NCBI GenBank assembly: GCA_029261165.1
Contig: JAJDBV010000087.1
Location: 1 to 60,603 of the forward strand
DNA length: 60,603 nt
Direction of reading: 5' to 3'
From: Nitrospirota bacterium
GTDB taxonomy: Bacteria > Nitrospirota > Nitrospiria > SBBL01 > JAADHI01
Under the pieces are notes generated by a model, which was given only the letters and a program-made list of their open reading frames with translations, was not told the origin of the DNA and searched no databases. Shown here in pieces: positions 11,439 through 23,697 of the stretch. The stretch's first letter is position 1; every line of letters begins with the position of its first letter. The translations under genes were made by a program, and so were the position numbers.

Positions 11439-12674
11439 ATGACTATGTTTGTAAAACAGCGCTCGATATCTTGTGTCATTGTTTTTTCTCTTCTTCTCAG
11501 TTTATCCGTTATTGGTTGCGGTGGCCATGATGATGTGGGGCAGTTGCCGGTGATTTCGTCCGTCACGACGGAAAAGGGGACCGCAGAGGCCCCCGTTACG
11601 GGTGGAACGGCTGTGACGATTCGCGGGCTTCATTTTTCGGACGATGCGAAGGTGACGTTTGGCGGCCAGGAATCGGCCAAGGTTGATGTTCCCAATTCAA
11701 CGACGATCATCGCAACGACAGGGGCTGTTTTTCGCTCCGGAATCGTTCCGATCACAGTGACCACCGGAGGGCAGATCGTAAAGAAACCATCGGCCTTTAA
11801 CTATACGCCGCTGACTGCTTTTTTTTCTGACCGGGATGGCGACTTTGAGGTCTTCACCATGGAAACGGATGGAGCGGGGGTGAGGCAGATCACAAAGAAC
11901 ACCCTTCGCGATCCACTCGATCCGACGACGCTTATTACGGATGAGTCTCCAAGATTTTCCCCTGATGGGAGGAATATTATCTTTGATTCGAACCGTACGG
12001 GAGATTTTGAAATCTTTATCATGGGACGGGCCGGGACCGACCCGACAAACATCACAAATGATCTAGCAATCGACCAGACCCCCGCCTTTTCACCGGATGG
12101 GGGGCAGGTCGTTTTTATCTCAAATCGCTTGAACGGCTTCCAGAATCCCGAGGGGGATTTTGAAGTTTTTCTCATGGATCAGGACGGGAGCAATCTGCAG
12201 CAACTGACCCAAAATACCAAGAGCGATCGTGATCCGGTCTTCTCACCCGACGGCGGTCAAATACTCTTTGTCTCCGACAGGGATGGAGATGAAGAGATCT
12301 TTCTTATGGACCGAAATGGGAACAATCCACAGCAACTCACCCTAAATACCACGAGCGATCGCCATCCGGTCTTCTCACCCGACGGCAGCCAAATCCTTTT
12401 TGTCTCTGACAGGGATGGAGATGAAGAGATCTTTCTTATGGATCGAAACGGGAACAATCCGCAGCAACTGACCCTAAATACCGCGAGCGATCGTGAACCA
12501 GTCTTCTCACCCGACGGACGCGAGATTCTCTTCACGTCGAATCGCACCGGCAACCTTGAGGTCTTTCTGATGAAATGCGATGACGGCGGTATCGATTTCG
12601 CGACCTGCAACCTTACGGATGTAAACCTGACGCTCCATGTCGCCACGGATTCCGCGCCATCTCTCTCTCCCTGA
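11439..12674 (+). CDS. Lipoprotein with TIG domain and TolB/PD40-like beta-propeller
   Basis: 411 aa. A hydrophobic signal ends in the lipobox-like VIGC near residue 27. An IPT/TIG immunoglobulin-like domain follows (about 35-125: PVISSVTTEKG, GGTAVTIRGLHFSDDAKVTFGG). Then come about six PD40/WD40-like repeats with the hallmark FSPDG...I.F.S.R.G..EIFLM (about 125-400), as in TolB. Two repeats are near-identical at DNA level. It is probably a periplasmic or surface binding protein. It is embedded as the only plus-strand gene in the minus-strand export block. No ribosome-binding site is evident upstream; ATG 11445 is an alternative start. Confidence 0.8.
   Translation: MTMFVKQRSISCVIVFSLLLSLSVIGCGGHDDVGQLPVISSVTTEKGTAEAPVTGGTAVTIRGLHFSDDAKVTFGGQESAKVDVPNSTTIIATTGAVFRSGIVPITVTTGGQIVKKPSAFNYTPLTAFFSDRDGDFEVFTMETDGAGVRQITKNTLRDPLDPTTLITDESPRFSPDGRNIIFDSNRTGDFEIFIMGRAGTDPTNITNDLAIDQTPAFSPDGGQVVFISNRLNGFQNPEGDFEVFLMDQDGSNLQQLTQNTKSDRDPVFSPDGGQILFVSDRDGDEEIFLMDRNGNNPQQLTLNTTSDRHPVFSPDGSQILFVSDRDGDEEIFLMDRNGNNPQQLTLNTASDREPVFSPDGREILFTSNRTGNLEVFLMKCDDGGIDFATCNLTDVNLTLHVATDSAPSLSP
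12240..12503 (+). repeat. Two near-identical 132-bp tandem repeats inside the propeller gene
   Basis: The units 12240-12371 and 12372-12503 differ at only a few positions, and a third, more diverged unit starts at 12504. Each encodes one 44-residue propeller blade (FSPDG...LFVSDRDGDEEIFLMDRNG). The period equals 44 codons, so copy number can change without a frameshift. Confidence 0.85.
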
Positions 12675-12702: not shown

Positions 12703-15700
12703 TCATCCATTCGGGGTCTGATCACACTGATCGCCTATCCCATCTCCATCGCTATCGGCCTGTTCGGGGTTGGGCGTAAAAGGACAGTTATCGACCTCGT
12801 TTGGGATGCCGTCTCCATCATCATCGACGGTAATGAACTCGCAGGCATCGCCGATTCGGTTGCCGTTTGCATCGGCCTGATCCGGATTGACAATATTCGG
12901 GCAGTTGTCACTTGCATCCAAGACGCCGTCCCCATCCGAATCCCCTGGGAGTGCCGCTTCCGGCCCGATTAATTTAATCACATAGGTGCTGTTTGGATCG
13001 AGGGAGAGGCTGTAGTTCCCATCAAGGCGCCCAGAAAGACAGTTTGGATCGGAGACGCAAATCTCATCGTTTCGGGTCCCTAATAAGGAGATCCCTGCGT
13101 TACCGACGCGGGTGCAGATGGTGCCCAGGGGCCGGCACGTGATCCCTCTTACCCCTACGGAGGAGGACGACCCTGGACTGACGAAGAGGTCGGCAAAGGA
13201 AAGGGTCTCAGGTTGAAAAACCGTCACAAGGGCGTTGCCCGAGAAGGGCCGGGTGGAGACCTCAGGGACCGCCTTGATCATCGCAAGCCCGACGGGAACA
13301 TTGAAGGCGATGAAACGGCCCCCCGTTGTTGTCTTATCGAGCACTTGCCCCGTGACACTGTTCTTCACATCGTCATTTGTTTCGTTCAGATACCGAACCG
13401 TCCCGACAGGGCTTCCACCTTCGTCCCTCACTTCAACCACGACCCCGTCTGCCGGGGATGAGAAACTTAAGAGGAGGGAGAGGGTCACTGATGCGGTGTT
13501 GGCGACGGCAAGATCGGCCCGGCCATCCTGGTTGAAGTCCCCTGCGACAAGGGAGCTTGGACCGGGTCCGACAGGAAACAACCTGGAGGCCGTGTTAAAG
13601 CGACCATTGCCCAACCCGAGGAGGAGAGAGACCTTCCCTGAAGCTTCATTGGCCAAGGCCAGATCAAGCCGTCCGTCCTGGTCAAAATCGATGAAGGTCA
13701 TGGCACGGGGGGCGCTCCCCGCTTCAAGGGGACAATCTTCAATGACCGCGGCCGTCTCCGGGAGACAATCCGTCTTCGTAAATCCACCCAGCCCATCACC
13801 AAGGAAGGACGTCACCGTGTCGGAACCGGCATTCGCCACCGTCAGATCAAGGTTGCCGTCTCCGTCAAGGTCCCCGACGGCAATGGCATTCGGTTGGGAC
13901 CCTACCTGGAGCGTCCCCGGGATGTTCCGGCTGAGGAGGAGAGAGACCGTATCCGATCCAAAGTTGGCAATCGCCTGATCAAGGAGCCCATCCCCATCAA
14001 AATCTCCGCTGGCGATAGCTCCGGGTGTGTTGCCCACCGGGCAGGGTATCGGACAGGGGGAGTCTTGCGAAGAGAAACCGCCGTTCCCATCCCCTAAGAG
14101 GATCGAGAGGTCGTTTGATATGCTATTGGCGACGGCAAGATCGAGGTTCCCGTCGCCGTCGATATCGTTTGTTGTGATAAATTGGGGGGCCAGACCAACC
14201 CCATCGCTAATCGCTCCAAATCGTTCTATAAATCTTCCGTTCCCGAGGCCGAATCGTGTCGAGACAGAGTCCGATCCCAGATCGGCCACCGCCAGATCAA
14301 GCCTTCCATCCCGGTCAAAATCACCGACTGTGATCGATCTGGGGTCCGTGCCAACCTGAATCGGAGGGAGGGTCGTTCCATCAAAGCCGCCGTCTTTCCG
14401 GCCAAGCAGAATGGAAACAAGACCAGGTGAGCGGACGACGGCAAGGTCAAGAAGATTATCTTCGTCAAAGAGGCCGGTGGCGACAGCATGGGGGGCGCTC
14501 CCCAACGAGATCGGACCGTTAGGATCCGGATTGAAGCTCGCCTCGACCACCTTTCCCGCCACCATCCCTTTTGTATTATCAAAGATGACGTTCCCCTTGC
14601 CGGCAAGATCTGATGTCTCCGTCATAGAGCTGATGAAAAGCCGCTGGTTTGGACGACCCGTCAATTTGGTCTTGAGCTGAAAGTTATAGGTATCGATAAA
14701 ACCCGCCTTTGTCGCCTTGAGGAGGAACTGACTATTTGCAGCCAACGACACGCCGGTTGTAAAGTCGCCTGAAGCAAAGGTGCCCTTTGCTCCCAGGACC
14801 GACACGCTAACATCCGGGACGGGAGTATCGCCTAGATTGGTCATCTTACCCGAGACAGAGACGGTTAAGGGTGTATGGTTGATCGTGATATCGGCCAGCG
14901 TCACGCCGCCCTGAAAGGTCCGTACCTGGAGATTCCCTGAGTCATCCGACGAGACGGCCTTAATCATCACTAGACCGGGAAGGAGATTCGAGATGAGAAA
15001 GCGGCCGTTTGCCGTCGTCGTGCTTAGATTCGGGTCGATGGCTCCGCCATTGAAGTAATCAATTTGACCGACCGGCTGTCCTGTGGTGATTGGAAGACCC
15101 TGGCCATCGATCCTCATCTGAGTCACCTCTATCACGACCTCGCCCACGGCGCCGTCAGGGCTTCTATTCAGGACCCTCCCCAATATCGCCCCGGTCCCTC
15201 CGGTCGGTGAAACGAGGGTTTTTGATACGGCGACCAGGTCCCGCACCATGTCCTGACGTCCCGTCCCGATGGTCTGGAATGTCGCCACATGATCGACGCT
15301 TTCATCCACTTGGACGATGTAACGGCTGTTGGCTAATAATGGAACGTCGTCGTCCAGGTCGGTCCCCTTTGCTATGGAATATAATCCATCTGCAGCAGTC
15401 GGGCCGGGATTTCCCGGGGGCGGTGTTGTAACACCGAGTATATTGATTGTTGCATTACCAACTGGTGTGCTTTGATCCTCTTCTGTGACCGTGCCTGACA
15501 ATGCGATTGTAAAAGGGGGCTCGCTCAAACCGACCCTCTCGATCGGTGTGACGCTGATCGTTTTCAACGAAATGCCATTCGGAAAAATGGGAACTATCGC
15601 ACTGCCAGCCGATTTCACGACACCGCTTCCTCCGATTGAGGCGACGGTGGCGTGGGCCGTCAAAAAGAGGTCGCCCGGGGGAAGATTCAAGATCATAAAC

Positions 15701-16812
15701 CGTCCGTTTGTACTCGTCGTCGCGAGGGCTGGATCCGGCCGGTCTGTCCCGGCATCAAAATAGGTGATATCACCCACCTCTCCCCCCAGGCGATTCGTTG
15801 CACGGACGATGCCCCCCCCCTTCCTTGTTCCAAACTCAACGATCCTACCGATGAGGATCCCCTTACCCGGATCCAGTGTGATCCCGGCTTCCGCAGCAAG
15901 GGATCGGCCCTCCCGGATAGAGACAGATCTCAGGTCTTGTATGACCTCTGTCGAGGCCGTTCCTGCCTGGAGTCGGCCTAGGTTTGTCGTTGTTTCCTGG
16001 TAGGTGTCATGATGATCCGCCGCGGTGACCTTCAAGAGAAAACGGCTGTCCGATCCAAAGCCGGAGCCACGAAAAGCCCCGGTGTTTGATGATGTCAATA
16101 TGCCGGATAGGCCCGGGACAGCAATTTCAGCCTGAGACACCCTGGTTGTGCCGTCCAATTCGTTCACCACGCCGGATAATATTACCGTCGGAATGGGGAC
16201 GGTGAAGACCTCCATGTTTGCCAATGAGACACCGCCGGCGAAAGCGGTGACGCGCCCGTTCCCCCTCCCTCCTCGTATGGCCTTGATGAAGAGCTCTCCC
16301 GGCGGGGCGTTAAAGACCGTGAAGCTTCCGGAGGCAGCAGTCCCCTCCGTATTGATGAACTCCGGGGTGCCGCTAATGCTGTTAAAGAGAAGGGGCGCGA
16401 CGATGTCCCCTGCGCTGTTCGTGACCCCGATGAGGGTATTCCCCTCTTCATCCTTGAGGATATTGCCGGCGGCATCGATGCCGCCAATTAAAACATTGCT
16501 GACGGGCGAACCCAGACCGTCGACAACGGTGCCGCTGATGACTCCGTTTTCTTGGGACTGTACCAGGTTTCCAGGGGCGGCAGTGACCAAGTTCTGGACA
16601 TCTGCCCCTGAAATGATCCTGAGATTCCCCTGTATTCCTGAGATGTCCCCCGACCCGGTTTTGAAATTGAAGGTATGCGTCGTCACGAAGGGGACCTGGA
16701 ATCCGGCGGTAAACTCTTCACCGACGGGGAAAGGATCGGAGTTGCATGCATAGAAGGCGACCCCTCCAAGAAAGAGAAGGGGGATCAGTTTCATAGACAT
16801 TCTTGCGAGCAA
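12703..16812 (-). CDS. Giant exported protein: regulatory-like modules, FG-GAP repeats, thrombospondin type-3 motifs
   Basis: 1369 aa. The N-terminal hydrophobic stretch LIPLLFLGGVAFYAC could be a lipoprotein signal, though Tyr at -2 is atypical. Residues about 90-770 hold repeated carboxypeptidase-regulatory-like beta modules (ISGTVVDGLGSPVSNV, GRFLISNLLPGLVMIKA). Residues about 777-1120 are FG-GAP/VCBS-type repeats (VGDFDRDGRLDLAVAD). Two thrombospondin type-3 calcium motifs (DSDGDGVLDASDNCP, DDDGDGIPNEVDNCP) end the protein. The start is TTG 16812, 11 bp after GGAGG; ATG 16800 is an alternative. The TPR-barrel gene lies 15 bp upstream, and its TAG stop abuts this ribosome-binding site, so they form an operon. 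A surface adhesin or scaffold is likely. Confidence 0.8.
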   Translation of the reverse strand: MLARMSMKLIPLLFLGGVAFYACNSDPFPVGEEFTAGFQVPFVTTHTFNFKTGSGDISGIQGNLRIISGADVQNLVTAAPGNLVQSQENGVISGTVVDGLGSPVSNVLIGGIDAAGNILKDEEGNTLIGVTNSAGDIVAPLLFNSISGTPEFINTEGTAASGSFTVFNAPPGELFIKAIRGGRGNGRVTAFAGGVSLANMEVFTVPIPTVILSGVVNELDGTTRVSQAEIAVPGLSGILTSSNTGAFRGSGFGSDSRFLLKVTAADHHDTYQETTTNLGRLQAGTASTEVIQDLRSVSIREGRSLAAEAGITLDPGKGILIGRIVEFGTRKGGGIVRATNRLGGEVGDITYFDAGTDRPDPALATTSTNGRFMILNLPPGDLFLTAHATVASIGGSGVVKSAGSAIVPIFPNGISLKTISVTPIERVGLSEPPFTIALSGTVTEEDQSTPVGNATINILGVTTPPPGNPGPTAADGLYSIAKGTDLDDDVPLLANSRYIVQVDESVDHVATFQTIGTGRQDMVRDLVAVSKTLVSPTGGTGAILGRVLNRSPDGAVGEVVIEVTQMRIDGQGLPITTGQPVGQIDYFNGGAIDPNLSTTTANGRFLISNLLPGLVMIKAVSSDDSGNLQVRTFQGGVTLADITINHTPLTVSVSGKMTNLGDTPVPDVSVSVLGAKGTFASGDFTTGVSLAANSQFLLKATKAGFIDTYNFQLKTKLTGRPNQRLFISSMTETSDLAGKGNVIFDNTKGMVAGKVVEASFNPDPNGPISLGSAPHAVATGLFDEDNLLDLAVVRSPGLVSILLGRKDGGFDGTTLPPIQVGTDPRSITVGDFDRDGRLDLAVADLGSDSVSTRFGLGNGRFIERFGAISDGVGLAPQFITTNDIDGDGNLDLAVANSISNDLSILLGDGNGGFSSQDSPCPIPCPVGNTPGAIASGDFDGDGLLDQAIANFGSDTVSLLLSRNIPGTLQVGSQPNAIAVGDLDGDGNLDLTVANAGSDTVTSFLGDGLGGFTKTDCLPETAAVIEDCPLEAGSAPRAMTFIDFDQDGRLDLALANEASGKVSLLLGLGNGRFNTASRLFPVGPGPSSLVAGDFNQDGRADLAVANTASVTLSLLLSFSSPADGVVVEVRDEGGSPVGTVRYLNETNDDVKNSVTGQVLDKTTTGGRFIAFNVPVGLAMIKAVPEVSTRPFSGNALVTVFQPETLSFADLFVSPGSSSSVGVRGITCRPLGTICTRVGNAGISLLGTRNDEICVSDPNCLSGRLDGNYSLSLDPNSTYVIKLIGPEAALPGDSDGDGVLDASDNCPNIVNPDQADANGNRIGDACEFITVDDDGDGIPNEVDNCPFTPNPEQADSDGDGIGDQCDQTPNG

Positions 16813-16827: not shown

Positions 16828-19800
16828 CTAAAAGCTGTAAATGACCTCTAAGTAGAGACGATTGCTGTCTTTAAAGAAACCGATAAAGTCAAATTCACCG
16901 ACCCGCGTTCCCCGATCACCCAGGAAGAAGTCGGCACCGAACCGCAGTTGAACGCGATCCGTGAGCCTTGAATCCATACGCGGCCTCAGCAAATAATCGG
17001 CTTCATTGATAAAGTAGAGGATAAGCATCTGAGTGCTTATCCGGTCGTTCAAAAAGGTCTTCCTGCCAAAAAAAGCCGCGACGGTATCAATCTTGTCTTG
17101 CAGGATGGACCTTTCCCAATTGAGTATACCTTGCTGAAGAAGCTGAATAGCAAGATCGGTGCCGAAGAGAGAAAAATCGAGACCGACGGCATACTTTATA
17201 AAGTCCCTCTTTAATTCTCCCAGGGTCGGGCCGCTGTTGATGGCCCCAGTCTCAAGCAGTGTGCCGAAATGCTTTCCGAAGGTGTAGGCAAATTCACTGT
17301 TGAGGACGATTTTTCCAAAGCTTTTGGAGAGGGTCGTTCCGAGGATGGTCAGGCGCGTTTGTCGGGGGACGAAATTCACGGTCAGCGGCGCCTGGAATCC
17401 CCCGCCGGTTCCCCCCGTGATGGCCCGAAAACTGGCCGGGAAATCATCCCAGGTATAAAAGGCGCTGAATGAAAGTTCCCATCCTTGAATGTTTTTCAAA
17501 AGACGTCCGGCCGCCTCACTGTTCTTGAATCCATCGATATTCAGATCGAGGGAGGAAGAGAGAAAAGATTGAGGGGGCTCAAACCCCGGCAGGATCTGAA
17601 ACTGCTCAAATTCCGTCCCCTGAGGGGCTGGTTTGTGGGGTTTGACCTCAGTGATCCAGACCAGTTCCAAGGCGTAGTCTTTTGGGGAAAAGTCGGCCTT
17701 GACCATCATGAGTGGAATAAATCGGTCTTCCACCTCTCTCAGGATGAATTCAGAAAAGTCGAACGGGTTGAGTTCGTCCGTTACCCGCGACCCCTGAACG
17801 ACACCCCAGCGGACGATCTGCCTTCCGATGCGGAGATCCAAGGCTCCCAGATGGATATCGAAGAAGATTTCCCGTATCTCAAAACGGCGTTTGATCATAT
17901 CAACGTTCCTGGAGTTCTTGACGTTGACCCTGGCGACTTCCTCTGAGGTGGGTGTCTGGGGAAGCTGGGTGAGGACCGTATTCGGGAACCGCCTCGGACT
18001 AATGGTATCGATGTCGATCAAATCATAGATTGCATCATAGAATGCCCGAACCCGTGTCGTCACGCGGAGATCCTTTGCAAGCATATACCTTGTATTCAAC
18101 CGGAAAAGATTGAGCGACTTGGTGAATGAGACCGGTTCATTGATCCGATAGGCCGTCTCATTTTTAAATGAGCCATCGAGACTGAGCCGGGATTTGGCAA
18201 AGCCCAAGATGTTGTTTTTCATAAGGGGTTTCTTTTCCTTTGTACCAAGCTTGCGCTTCCAGAACCGCTCAAAAACCGTTGGGACAAGGGGATCTCGACC
18301 GAAATGAAAACGGATTGCCCCTCGAATATCGAATCCATCCAAGCTAAGCTTCAGCTTACTTGGTCTTGCGCCTTCGACCACTTGATCTCTCTCACACGCG
18401 ATCACCTGGACGGTTTCTCCCTCTGTTCGGGTATCGACCTGCCGAAAACAGGGGCTGTCCGAGATGCCTGGAAGACCGGCAGGGATCAGACGGAAGTCTG
18501 ATGGAAATTCCCGTTTTACTTTCAGTTTTGAGATATTCCCCCAGATATAATCCACATTCAATCCGACCGATAACCAGGACAGCAGGAAAAATTCTCCGCC
18601 GATACCGAAGCGGGTTGTGAAGCCTCTCCCTTTCGACTCGGTTGATCCAAATGAGGCGAAGGGATTGCCGATTGGGTTTTCTTCAACCTTTATCAGGGAG
18701 TCGATGGTCAGGGTGGCGAGGACTCCGCCAACCAATCCGATATTCAGGTGCATCCGACCCTTTTCAGGACTGTTGATGATGGAATACCGCCATGCAAGTT
18801 GGAAGTGGTTGATTGTCAGGTTATATCGGGCGCTTCTTGGCACGCGTAAAGGCGCTTCGTTCGGGGAAAGGAGAAGTGGAACCATATCACTTCTGATAGA
18901 GGCATTCTGCCATTCTGATACAGAGAAGACAAGAGAATGTCTCTGACTGATCTCCCATTCTGCTTCAATACCCACACTGAAATCTCCGCTGACTTTAGAT
19001 ATGGGCATGTTCCGGGACTCAGAGAGGAAGTCCGGGTTTGAAGGAAGGAGATGGTTGGGGTCTTGGATGATGACCCTTCCTGAATTGGCAAGTACACTGT
19101 TCAGCCCTTTTAAGGCGGGGCGATAGTAGCCTGTTGTCAAGCCAACAGTGAGGCGCTTTCCGATATTATTCCAGGTCGGGTATGGCACCTTCAGATCTGT
19201 GGTAAGTGTTGCCCCGAAGCTGACAAGGGTCCTCCGGTAGGCCCCAAGAGAAGCGGCCTGGCCGGAGTTGAGGCTGACCAGGGCGATCGGCGCCGCCGCG
19301 GAGAGGTTCGATTTGTTCTCTTCTCCTAGATACCTGGCGAATAAGGAGAGCCCAGGGGTGAGCCGATATGTCAGGCCGATCCTGTATGTCGTCAAAATAT
19401 TTCGTCTGCGGCGCGACGTCCCCTCACTCAGGGCCAGAGAATCGGGGCGACTAAACCGGGTATAGGTCTTGGTCAATCCGAGATTGCCCGTGACATTCCG
19501 GGTGAACGCCCGCTCATAGGTCAGAGAAACGGCATGCGATCGATTTGCCTGATCATTGGCATCGATATTATTATCAAGAAAGGTGTAACTTAAGCCGGGC
19601 CGCCCCAGACGATATCCCCTTGCTTGGAGGTTTTGGGCCGCACCCAGCCTGACGCTCTGTCTGGTTGCATCAAAGATGGGGTTCGTGCGCGCCTTCAAGC
19701 GTTGATAATCATAATGGAGAACAATCTGACTCGGCGTTGTTCCAAGCCTGACGATCTCGCCCGAGAAGGTGTGGCTGAGAAATGTCGAGCGGGTTTCCGT

Positions 19801-21552
19801 TTCACTTCCGCCGGAGAAACCATGCCGTAGGCGATATGATTGTAGGAAGGTATAGGGCGGATAAAAGGAGACAGCCGAGAGTGAGAGCCCTTCATTGAGG
19901 AAAAAGAGCTGTGTGCGGTGGAGAAATCTGTTTTGGATATTCACTTGAAGAGGGAGAAGAAATCTGGGTGTTTTTCTCAGATAATAGGTCAGTCCGAGAG
20001 CGATATTGGAGGAAAGTTCACTTTCCGGATTGCGGCTTCGGTTCCGATTGCTGTCATAGGTCAAGAAGGTATCGGTGAAGCTGACACGGTATCGTTTTTC
20101 ATAAAAATCGACGCGCCCTTTCGCCCGTCGCCCCTCCGGCGTCTCCTCCCGCTTCGGCTGGGCGAGCACCTTCCGGTATGCTTCAACTGCCTCCTTATAC
20201 AGGCCCTGTTTTTCAAGGAGGACCCCTAGACGGAGGTGGGGGGGCGCTTCCCTCGGCCTAAGCGCGCCCGCCTTCTTGTAGAACCGTATCGCCTCCTCTA
20301 TCTGATCCTTCTTTTCGTAGAGAGACCCCAAGCGCAGGTGGCTCGGGTAGTGGCTGGGGTCGATCTCTATCGTCCGCAGAAACCTGGCCTCAGCCGCCTT
20401 CGCTTCTCCTTTTTTGAGGGCGATCCGGCCGAGATTGAAGTGGGCGAAGACCTGTTCCGGCAGGAGGGAAAGAACGGCCAGGAATTCAATCTCAGCCTTC
20501 CCCGGGTTTCCACCGGCCAGAAATGCCACCCCTTTTTCGATGTGGGCCTGAACTTTCCGGCCGACCTCGAGTGTTTCACCAATCTGGCTCAGTTTTCGCC
20601 TGGCCAACTGGGCCTTCTCCTGATCCTTATCAGGGGCTTGTGACAGGACCGTTTGATATTCGAGGATTGCCTCCTTGATCCGCCTCTGTTTTTCATAGGT
20701 CTCCCCTAGGAGGAGACGGGCAGAAAAGAAATCTTCTTTTTTTTCCAGGGCCTTGTTGAGTAATATGGCAGCCGCGTCCAAGCGGTTTTTTCGGCTTGCG
20801 ATTGTCGCCAGATTGTATAAAGCAAAGGGGTTGTCCGGATCGAGTGAGATCACCTTCTGGAAGGCCTCTTGGCTATGCTCAAGGTCCCCTTTTCGTAAGA
20901 ATTCTATCCCCACCTCAAAATGGGCGTCCGCCTCTTCCTTAAACTGCGTGAGTCGTTTTTCCGCTTCTTGGACCTCGCTCCCCTTCCCCCTTAAGGAGAG
21001 GACGATCCGATACTCCTCGATGGCCTTCTCGACGAGCCCCTGGGTTTGGTAAAGGAGCCCGAGGACATAATGACTCCCCGCATGGTCCGGATCGATGGCA
21101 ATGGCCACCTTGGCTTCCTCGACGGCCTTCTCAGTAAGGCCCATGGCGGCATAGGCCTGCCCCAGGAGGAGGTGGGCCTCCAGGAGCTCCGGCTGGTGTC
21201 GAATGGCCCCCCGGAATACCTCGATCGCCTGATCGATTTCCCCTTTTCGTGTATAAATGATCCCGAGATTCAGATAGGAAGGGGAATGGGCCGGGTTGAG
21301 CGCAATGACCCCCCTGAACATTTTGATGGCGTTTTCCAGGTCTCCGACCGCCATGAAGCGGCGGCCTTCCTCAAAGAGCGCCTCTCCTGCCGCATCTGCC
21401 TCTCCTTGACCCAAGAGGGGCGCAGGGAATATCAATTGTGTACAAAGGAGGAAGAAGAAGATCGAAGCCTGCCATGAGGGCCGGGACGCTTTACGACCTT
21501 GGGGCTTCGGTGATAATGAGGATTGAAAGGTTATTTGCTTTGATCCCTGCAC
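16828..21552 (-). CDS. TPR domain fused to two outer-membrane beta-barrel regions (C-terminal DUF1302-like)
   Basis: 1574 aa. A long N-region with signal peptide (about residues 28-49, ending LLGQ) is followed by about ten TPR repeats (50-470, for example AIKMFRGVIALNPAHSPSYLNLG). A beta-barrel-like region (about 480-1084) has alternating aromatic strands and ends GFDIRGAIRFHFG. A second barrel (about 1085-1574) has the DUF1302-type signature RIGRQIVRWGVVQGSRVTDELNPFDF near residue 1250. It finishes with the outer-membrane-type terminal strand YLEVIYSF. It probably sits in the outer membrane with periplasmic TPRs, as an export or assembly platform for the 1369-aa partner encoded 15 bp downstream. 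Confidence 0.75.
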   Translation of the reverse strand: MQGSKQITFQSSLSPKPQGRKASRPSWQASIFFFLLCTQLIFPAPLLGQGEADAAGEALFEEGRRFMAVGDLENAIKMFRGVIALNPAHSPSYLNLGIIYTRKGEIDQAIEVFRGAIRHQPELLEAHLLLGQAYAAMGLTEKAVEEAKVAIAIDPDHAGSHYVLGLLYQTQGLVEKAIEEYRIVLSLRGKGSEVQEAEKRLTQFKEEADAHFEVGIEFLRKGDLEHSQEAFQKVISLDPDNPFALYNLATIASRKNRLDAAAILLNKALEKKEDFFSARLLLGETYEKQRRIKEAILEYQTVLSQAPDKDQEKAQLARRKLSQIGETLEVGRKVQAHIEKGVAFLAGGNPGKAEIEFLAVLSLLPEQVFAHFNLGRIALKKGEAKAAEARFLRTIEIDPSHYPSHLRLGSLYEKKDQIEEAIRFYKKAGALRPREAPPHLRLGVLLEKQGLYKEAVEAYRKVLAQPKREETPEGRRAKGRVDFYEKRYRVSFTDTFLTYDSNRNRSRNPESELSSNIALGLTYYLRKTPRFLLPLQVNIQNRFLHRTQLFFLNEGLSLSAVSFYPPYTFLQSYRLRHGFSGGSETETRSTFLSHTFSGEIVRLGTTPSQIVLHYDYQRLKARTNPIFDATRQSVRLGAAQNLQARGYRLGRPGLSYTFLDNNIDANDQANRSHAVSLTYERAFTRNVTGNLGLTKTYTRFSRPDSLALSEGTSRRRRNILTTYRIGLTYRLTPGLSLFARYLGEENKSNLSAAAPIALVSLNSGQAASLGAYRRTLVSFGATLTTDLKVPYPTWNNIGKRLTVGLTTGYYRPALKGLNSVLANSGRVIIQDPNHLLPSNPDFLSESRNMPISKVSGDFSVGIEAEWEISQRHSLVFSVSEWQNASIRSDMVPLLLSPNEAPLRVPRSARYNLTINHFQLAWRYSIINSPEKGRMHLNIGLVGGVLATLTIDSLIKVEENPIGNPFASFGSTESKGRGFTTRFGIGGEFFLLSWLSVGLNVDYIWGNISKLKVKREFPSDFRLIPAGLPGISDSPCFRQVDTRTEGETVQVIACERDQVVEGARPSKLKLSLDGFDIRGAIRFHFGRDPLVPTVFERFWKRKLGTKEKKPLMKNNILGFAKSRLSLDGSFKNETAYRINEPVSFTKSLNLFRLNTRYMLAKDLRVTTRVRAFYDAIYDLIDIDTISPRRFPNTVLTQLPQTPTSEEVARVNVKNSRNVDMIKRRFEIREIFFDIHLGALDLRIGRQIVRWGVVQGSRVTDELNPFDFSEFILREVEDRFIPLMMVKADFSPKDYALELVWITEVKPHKPAPQGTEFEQFQILPGFEPPQSFLSSSLDLNIDGFKNSEAAGRLLKNIQGWELSFSAFYTWDDFPASFRAITGGTGGGFQAPLTVNFVPRQTRLTILGTTLSKSFGKIVLNSEFAYTFGKHFGTLLETGAINSGPTLGELKRDFIKYAVGLDFSLFGTDLAIQLLQQGILNWERSILQDKIDTVAAFFGRKTFLNDRISTQMLILYFINEADYLLRPRMDSRLTDRVQLRFGADFFLGDRGTRVGEFDFIGFFKDSNRLYLEVIYSF

Positions 21553-21634
21553 GAGGGTATTATAAAGGAAGGAGTCGGCGATTCGCCACTCTCGCCGGTG
21601 GCCTCAAAGGTTCGGTACCCTCTAATTAATGAGA

Positions 21635-21689: not shown

Positions 21690-22553
21690 TTAGGGAATCG
21701 TCGCCGATGTGTCCCCTATGGATTGACTCGGGCCTGAAGGATGGGATGCATCGTCAAAAGTATTGCCGGGCCCATTATAGACAAACGAACCCGCGGCGGG
21801 ACTGAGGACAAATCCCCCTTCCTCAATCGTTTGCTCAAAGTTGATGACCCCCCCTGTATTACCTTCCGTCGGATTTTCTACAAATTCGCTATCAACCGAA
21901 AAACTGACAACCTGAAAGTCCGTCCCCCCGAACCCTCCGACAAAGGTCGTCTGACCTATTGTCTGGTCGAACCTTGACATTCGGCTTTCACCTGCTGGCG
22001 CAGCATCTGTAGCAGGATCTACATTGAAAAGAAACTCGAATGTCATTGTCTTCGTAATCTCGACGCCAGCCTTTCCTCCGCTAATCGCTGTTGTTCCGGC
22101 GGTTCCCGTAACGGGCGTTCCATCATTGAGGAAATCCTGATTATCCATCGGCAAACTGAAGATAAAGGGGCCGGAATCATTACAATTGCTGCCGCAAGCG
22201 GCCGCTCCTGGGAGATCCATGTCCTGATTTCCGACACCAAAGGATTGGTCGCCCAGGTCCGCGTCGGCATTCTCTCTAATCTCCCCAAACATGCTATTGG
22301 TCAACGCGCCGGCCGTGTTTCCAAGGGCCGTGTTTGGGCAGGAAAAACAAGGCCCTAGAGTGGGGTCGGTGTTTATCGCAGCAGGGAGGAGGTTGAGCGA
22401 TGCGTCAAACCCGAGGATGGTACTCCCCTCAATGTTCCCCTCTGTAACATTCTCCTGATTTACCTGAGCCGATGCGACCTTTCCGATCATTAGGCTCGCT
22501 GCAGCAATCACCAATCCTAAGATTAATGCTTTCCCTACATGCCTAAATTTCAT
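21690..22553 (-). CDS. Secreted beta-rich hypothetical protein (member 3 of a trio)
   Basis: 287 aa. The ATG at 22553 follows GGAGGGTACGCAAA. A clear signal peptide ends VASAQ (about residue 30). The mature region is Gly/Asn/Asp/Thr-rich with CFSC and CGSNC Cys pairs, MTFEFLFNVDP and GSFVYNGPG. It resembles the gene at 11148-10063 in several short motifs and in overall composition. It has a good promoter and an 18-bp palindrome upstream. Function is not recognised; an extracellular or surface protein is inferred. Confidence 0.65.
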   Translation of the reverse strand: MKFRHVGKALILGLVIAAASLMIGKVASAQVNQENVTEGNIEGSTILGFDASLNLLPAAINTDPTLGPCFSCPNTALGNTAGALTNSMFGEIRENADADLGDQSFGVGNQDMDLPGAAACGSNCNDSGPFIFSLPMDNQDFLNDGTPVTGTAGTTAISGGKAGVEITKTMTFEFLFNVDPATDAAPAGESRMSRFDQTIGQTTFVGGFGGTDFQVVSFSVDSEFVENPTEGNTGGVINFEQTIEEGGFVLSPAAGSFVYNGPGNTFDDASHPSGPSQSIGDTSATIP

Positions 22554-22881: not shown

Positions 22882-23697
22882 TTAACTCGGTTTTCCCCGC
22901 ACCAGGGTCCGATCTGTAAAGAGGGCGTCTCTTAGGCCTGCATTGATCTTGACGCCGCTTATTTCAAAGATCGTCCTGTGGCGAGTTTGGACGTTTATGA
23001 TCTCAGAGCGTTTCCAGACGAGGATATCCTCAATCCTTTGCCAGATAATCAATTGAATCTTCAGGGGATTCATATTTCTATCATAAAACTCGATCTTACG
23101 GGCGATCTCATCCTTCTTAGAGATGAAGAACCGTTTCTTTCCATAAGGACTATCCTGCTCTTTCGGTACGCTCTCGATGACATAGCATGGCTCTTTCAAT
23201 TGCCGACACATCCCATCAAAGAAAATATGATGGTCGTCTTCATCCAGGCGCCTGTCCCCCATATCGGCAAAGGTCAAGTCCGAACCCATAAAGGCGTCAT
23301 GCTGACCCCGCGTCGTCATCCGGCGGACACTCCTCAAGGCAGGGAGATAGAGCCAGAGGTCATCCGGTTTTTCTTCAATAGCATAATCCCAGATCAAGAA
23401 GCCGATCCCCTTCGCATCCGGGGGGAACTCTGTGAAAAAGATGCTCTTGCTGTCAAATCCATCTTTTCCGCCGTAATGCTTGTGCAAGCGATAGGTCTCG
23501 ACCTTTCTTCTGCTTCCAAGTTCGTCGATTAGATGCATTGTAACGGTAGAGGTCTGATCCATCGTCATATTGGCCTCGTCAACCCTTTTCATAATCTCAA
23601 GCGCCGTCAACTTCTTCTCCTCGGCAAAACCCATATCAGAGTAAAAGAAAAGGAGACAAAAGATCAGACCCAGTCTCCAAACAATCGAATTTCTCAT
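22882..23697 (-). CDS. LolA-like outer-membrane lipoprotein-sorting protein
   Basis: 271 aa. A signal peptide ends GFAEE (about residue 26). The body has the LolA-like pattern: LTALEIMKRVDEANMTMDQTSTVTM, KSIFFTEFPPDAKGIGFLIWDY, DDLWLYLPALRSVRRM, FMGSDLTFADM and YGKKRFFISKKDEIARKIEFYDRN. Such proteins are half-open beta-barrels in the periplasm. In other genomes they often accompany DUF1302 barrels and RND/MMPL exporters. Here a DUF1302-like barrel is nearby, but no exporter is seen. The ribosome-binding site AAGGAG precedes the ATG. A frameshifted ORF ends 18 bp upstream. Confidence 0.8.
   Translation of the reverse strand: MRNSIVWRLGLIFCLLFFYSDMGFAEEKKLTALEIMKRVDEANMTMDQTSTVTMHLIDELGSRRKVETYRLHKHYGGKDGFDSKSIFFTEFPPDAKGIGFLIWDYAIEEKPDDLWLYLPALRSVRRMTTRGQHDAFMGSDLTFADMGDRRLDEDDHHIFFDGMCRQLKEPCYVIESVPKEQDSPYGKKRFFISKKDEIARKIEFYDRNMNPLKIQLIIWQRIEDILVWKRSEIINVQTRHRTIFEISGVKINAGLRDALFTDRTLVRGKPS

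Follow-up and report, generated by a model that had tools for sequence, protein, structure and literature searches.

Several described systems resemble parts of the locus reported here. Outer-membrane proteins that carry more than one β-barrel in a single chain form a described class, as set out in two papers, according to which GfcD, of the GfcD/YjbH type, combines one 12-stranded with one 13-stranded barrel (PMC8592465, PMC11494523). SLAM/DUF560 proteins (PF04575, TXISS) export lipoproteins as well as other proteins whose genes lie close to their own (PMC8406197). AmeABCD of Castellaniella defragrans comprises a DUF1302 protein, LolA/DUF1329 and an HAE3 RND transporter, and has been shown to affect the export of hydrophobic compounds: on its deletion, cells took up more Nile Red and became less tolerant of monoterpenes (PMC6394551).

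The window, i. e. the whole stretch of 60,603 nucleotides from a Nitrospirota bacterium that was analysed, encodes a protein that can be compared with each of these. Its reading frame is open across 1574 codons on the minus strand (21552→16828), which confirms the assumption of an earlier sequence-only reading that a single polypeptide is encoded, and the GC content along the gene is roughly even (0.50–0.57). The features of the locus are as follows:

12703–16812, minus strand: large lipoprotein, 1369 aa, directly downstream of the fusion; FG-GAP_3 (E 2.5e-37) and TSP_3 (thrombospondin-3 repeats, E 4.5e-13)
16828–21552, minus strand: TPR-A-B-C fusion protein, 1574 aa; GTG start, TAG stop, signal peptide at residues ~28–49; one open frame, architecture recurring in L003 (genome G001), L039 (G002), L040 (G003) and L054 plus L055 (G007)
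20142–21390, minus strand: TPR region of the fusion, residues ~55–470; ~11 repeats in three blocks, Pfam TPR families (lowest E 3.9e-49), presumed periplasmic
19192–20106, minus strand: predicted barrel A, residues ~483–787; SlipAM-superfamily type, 14 hairpin-alternating strands by eye
18298–19167, minus strand: predicted barrel B, residues ~796–1085; possibly OmpW-like, 8 strands by eye, long outer loops
16831–18210, minus strand: predicted barrel C, residues ~1115–1574; DUF1302 type, final strand RLYLEVIYSF
21690–22553, minus strand: small secreted protein, 287 aa, with signal peptide and CxxC and CGxNC cysteines (CFSC and CGSNC in the window); candidate cargo
22882–23697, minus strand: LolA-like periplasmic carrier, 271 aa; PF17131 (E 7.5e-45) and DUF1329 (PF07044, E 6e-10)

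The TPR count was made by eye on the translation and agrees well with the about ten repeats proposed before. The TPRs are followed by ~1100 residues of barrel-like sequence, in which A and B are joined by a linker of ~10 aa and B and C by one of ~30 aa. The GTG start has no clear Shine-Dalgarno sequence (21553–21580, minus strand) and is preceded at a distance of ~9 bases by a TATAAT box, so that the mRNA may be leaderless or the true start may lie elsewhere.

According to the sequence-only reading, a first barrel-like region and a DUF1302-like barrel follow the TPRs. The presence of several barrels in one chain stood, but not their number, which becomes three by homology to stand-alone A, B and C genes. 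The supposed first region splits into A and B, because each of them also occurs as a complete separate gene whose product ends in Phe, and the two-barrel reading was dropped, B being a separate gene in relatives. Across the Nitrospirota, the A, B and C proteins encoded by separate genes are similar in length to the corresponding parts of the fusion, and their boundaries match those of the fused domains. A terminal Phe is found in all aligned stand-alone copies (..NWSF and similar in A, ..RFYF or ..QFHF in B, ..TYSF in C). The stand-alone B genes carry their own signal peptide and end exactly at the position of the ..RFHF that fused B retains at residue 1084; the last strand of fused A, SFGATLTTDLK, has lost its terminal Phe.

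The strand pattern of the aligned homologues (A, n=19; B, n=14; C, n=20; alignments A1–A3) was assessed by a simple amphipathicity scan with column shuffles as control. This gave 11 strand peaks for A (2.9±1.4 in shuffles, maximum 6), 9 for B (3.2±1.6, maximum 8) and 14 for C (7.8±2.1, maximum 14), the signal for C being weaker than those for A and B. In turn, PF06980 matches all 20 members of the C alignment as well as residues 1155–1426 of the fusion itself (E 2.3e-12), which bears out the DUF1302 assignment made earlier. Six of the 14 B members have weak matches to PF13505 (OMP_b-brl), the best of them at E 1.3e-4, and a profile search with the aligned A members touches several barrel families. 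Searches of PDB sequence profiles with A and B yielded no significant match; for C, the one hit (E 0.0044) spans 76 columns of CdiI, a soluble immunity protein, and was regarded as fortuitous. AlphaFold2, run on only 3 sequences, gave uninterpretable models (pLDDT 25.5 for A+B+C and 36.6 for B). With this low-confidence B model, Foldseek returned OmpW as the best PDB match (E 0.042; none reached 0.001), so that the OmpW likeness of B is only a hint.

Homology of A, B and C together with the strand-pattern control thus places at least two outer-membrane barrel domains in one chain at the sequence level, as is characteristic of multi-barrel proteins, and it is very likely that a genuine fusion with three barrel-type domains is at hand. 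Conceivably, A, B and C could instead close together into one giant barrel of roughly 36–38 strands. This appears highly improbable, however, as each domain occurs elsewhere as a complete secreted protein of full length with a terminal Phe, and the inter-domain linkers are conserved.

In the multi-barrel survey of Solan et al. (2021), combinations with 8-stranded barrels are reportedly common and fusions lineage-specific, which would fit B. Like the GfcD/YjbH proteins, the fusion has more than one barrel domain per chain; compared by description, it differs by its three dissimilar barrels (14-type, 8-type and DUF1302) behind a TPR arm and by an A–B join that consists of a short linker instead of a periplasmic domain. 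The earlier statement that two barrels in one chain are rare holds for solved structures, but multi-barrel proteins as such are a described class, as the two papers cited above set out, the first of them with reference to Solan et al. (2021). A literature search found no description of a TPR plus three-barrel protein or of a Nitrospirota cluster of these genes, and the combination of three barrels with TPRs looks new.

An obvious objection is that separate genes were wrongly joined by assembly or annotation. Separate genes indeed occur in relatives and in the same genome, but the TPR-A-B-C order recurs at 51% identity in G001 (on the same contig as JAJDBU010000048), G002 and G003, and both linkers are kept in the four full-length fused copies. 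In G007, two contigs end inside the gene, and both sides are fused (residues 33–818 and 772–1574, 41 and 59% identity). Moreover, loss of a stop codon cannot yield the fused order, as B lies upstream of TPR-A in the split clusters described below. Because independent, diverged assemblies (four full-length ones from three genera and a fifth at a contig break, ~40–60% identity) share order and linkers, the artefact, and with it the misjoining of two genes considered in the sequence-only reading, can be practically dismissed. Altogether, the fused form was found in five of the eight family genomes examined, from three genera, and not in the remaining G004, G005 and G006. The search for split homologues that the sequence-only reading had proposed was likewise successful, both in relatives and within the same genome, and together with the five fused genomes it upholds the claimed multi-barrel fusion.

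In the A, B and C trees, the fused copies each form one clade (support 99/98, 100/100 and 100/100), which fits a single fusion event. Beyond stop-codon loss, this event must, we infer, have inserted B between the other two barrels, because B is located upstream of TPR-A in the split clusters. The fused genomes also retain stand-alone B or C copies, so that the fusion is part of an additional, paralogous system.

Such stand-alone copies are found on two other contigs of the same genome. Contig C16 carries a 1095-aa TPR-A gene, followed by a 535-aa DUF1302 gene (C) and a lipoprotein gene, and contig C17 carries a LolA-RND-B set with a 372-aa B gene that matches residues 798–1084 of the fusion only. 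In G004, the three parts are separate genes within one cluster. Loci L042 and L043 begin with LolA-like, MMPL RND and B, which are followed by one or two small secreted proteins and then by TPR-A, C and the large lipoprotein; L041, L047 and L050 show B, two small proteins, TPR-A, C and lipoprotein. The reading frames of TPR-A and C share a few bases in L042 and L047, suggesting coupled translation. The MMPL RND of the split clusters was assigned by Pfam and matches the HAE3 model TIGR00921 (E 4.7e-51, under its cut-off). LolA, a second DUF1302 gene, RND and B are found in L045, and DUF1302, RND and B in L044 and L048 (the RND of L048 was read from sequence only). This second, more distant DUF1302 protein thus adjoins an MMPL-like RND and B (L045:6059–13239, L044:15019–19998, L048:368–6390), and these genes are an Ame-like module apart from the TPR-A/C/lipoprotein module. 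A moaA-like radical SAM gene, recognized by eye, also recurs within or next to the clusters, where it separates B from the small secreted proteins (L037:10049–11044, L044:11807–12799, L048:12394–13431).

Of the cluster, the window retains the LolA-like protein, one secreted protein, the fusion and the lipoprotein. The LolA-like neighbour had been noticed before and is substantiated by the PF17131 match; orthologues with 67–71% identity adjoin the fusion in L003 and L039. No RND gene adjoins the fused copies in the window or at L039. This agrees with the earlier remark that no RND exporter is visible, and a scan of the same genome detected MMPL proteins only outside the window contig, C86; the nearest RND by kind lies beside B on C17. 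Hence, the fusion system resembles AmeABCD in its DUF1302 domain (PF06980), the LolA/DUF1329 protein of the window (PF17131, PF07044) and the HAE3 RND partner in the split clusters. It differs by the missing RND beside the fused copy and by the additional TPR-A, B, lipoprotein and small secreted proteins. The fusion could accordingly be the outer-membrane part of an HAE3 RND/LolA path for lipids or hydrophobic compounds instead of proteins, with the lipoprotein and the secreted protein as structural accessories. The joint occurrence of DUF1302, LolA-like/DUF1329 and MMPL RND proteins in the split clusters, as in AmeABCD, speaks for such hydrophobe traffic. Yet, it would leave the TPR-SlipAM-type barrel as well as the invariant lipoprotein and secreted proteins unexplained, and the lack of an RND gene adjoining the fused copies adds to making it rather unlikely.

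An export role for proteins is suggested by a different relationship. When the profile of A was compared with Nitrospirota TPR proteins that pass the cut-off of PF04575 (SlipAM), hhalign aligned them end to end over 274 columns (P 99.5%, E 1.5e-21); the B and C profiles did not match these TPR-SlipAM proteins. Against bona fide SLAMs from the same class, the A profile gave no significant direct alignment. PF04575 itself matches 3 of 19 A members weakly (best E 0.001), and neither the window member nor any other protein of the same genome. The fusion has in common with SLAM/DUF560 proteins a signal peptide, a TPR arm that is N-terminal as in SLAMs according to Pfam, a 14-strand-type barrel and an adjoining lipoprotein. 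It is set apart from them by the lack of a PF04575 match in the window protein, by two extra barrels and by the neighbouring lipoprotein, in which the Pfam scan detected no TbpB-type domain.

This conserved lipoprotein is a candidate for the adjacent surface-lipoprotein substrate that a SLAM protein would have. A Shine-Dalgarno-like AGGAGG in front of its gene overlaps the stop codon of the fusion, and a downstream lipoprotein is kept at all 18 loci examined, with a lipobox-like Cys in 18 of 18 homologues. Convergent with its gene is that of a TIG and PD40/WD40-like β-propeller protein with a lipoprotein-like signal and near-identical internal repeats (11439–12674, plus strand). On the other side of the fusion, the small secreted protein has one or two homologous copies at each fused locus with upstream sequence (L003, L039, L040 and L054; L003:1296–3073) and aligns with proteins of the split clusters; searches of Pfam, NCBIfam and PHROGs gave no match for it.

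A TPR superhelix fused to an outer-membrane barrel is also the plan of the exopolysaccharide exporters PgaA, BcsC and PelB, and the window carries sugar-nucleotide dehydrogenase and epimerase genes on the opposite strand at a distance of 4 kb. However, these sugar genes are not kept beside the fusion in L003 or L039, and the conserved cluster contains no polysaccharide synthase. The fusion further departs from PgaA, BcsC and PelB by its two additional barrels, and A links to SlipAM-type barrels, all of which makes an exopolysaccharide exporter quite improbable.

Taken together, the SlipAM-type link of A, the conserved lipoprotein neighbour and the AmeABCD-like set of DUF1302, LolA/DUF1329 and HAE3 RND proteins favour an export platform. 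An export role of the fusion seems about evenly balanced, and its reading as a lineage-specific fusion in which three outer-membrane proteins together form the outer-membrane terminus of a SLAM/Ame-like export pathway is put forward tentatively, at slightly less than an even chance. The notion of a fused secretion or assembly machine in the sequence-only reading thereby gains a tie to an export or assembly pathway, although this continues to derive from gene neighbourhood and the profile link of A to TPR-SlipAM proteins. That the specific cargo is the lipoprotein, the small secreted protein or both is suggested by the neighbourhood only and is doubtful.

A, B and C might all insert as side-by-side barrels in a fixed 1:1:1 assembly, with the TPR arm in the periplasm. 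Least certain is the export route itself, in which the LolA-like protein could carry a client that is lipidated or hydrophobic as far as the TPR arm. The SLAM-like A barrel may then move this client, most likely one or both of the neighbouring large lipoprotein and the small secreted protein, to the cell surface, while B and C would act as accessory channels or docking partners. A pump, if any, could come from elsewhere in the genome, or the fused copy may need none. A point against this reading is that fused A has lost its terminal Phe, so that the internal barrels would have to assemble without a free C-terminal signal. A more far-reaching and unlikely variant is a single-chain translocon with three lumina, in which SLAM-like, OmpW-like and DUF1302 barrels work in relay with the TPR arm and the LolA-like carrier to bring lipoproteins and small secreted proteins to the surface independently of the RND pump of the parent cluster.

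The fusion may also be regarded as a Rosetta stone that ties together three outer-membrane proteins which elsewhere in the Nitrospirota are spread over two neighbouring modules. As it links parts of the RND/LolA module and of the TPR-barrel/DUF1302/lipoprotein module, these are predicted to act together. It points toward an uncharacterised surface-export system in the Nitrospirota and would offer a tractable single protein for studying the BAM-dependent folding of internal barrels that have no free C-terminal signal.

A separate observation concerns the TPR-SlipAM proteins of the Nitrospiria, which are encoded directly upstream of FecR-domain proteins at both loci checked (L109 and L110), with other weak PF04575 matches at L111–L118. 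The TPR-SlipAM/FecR pairing may mark another SLAM-like export system.
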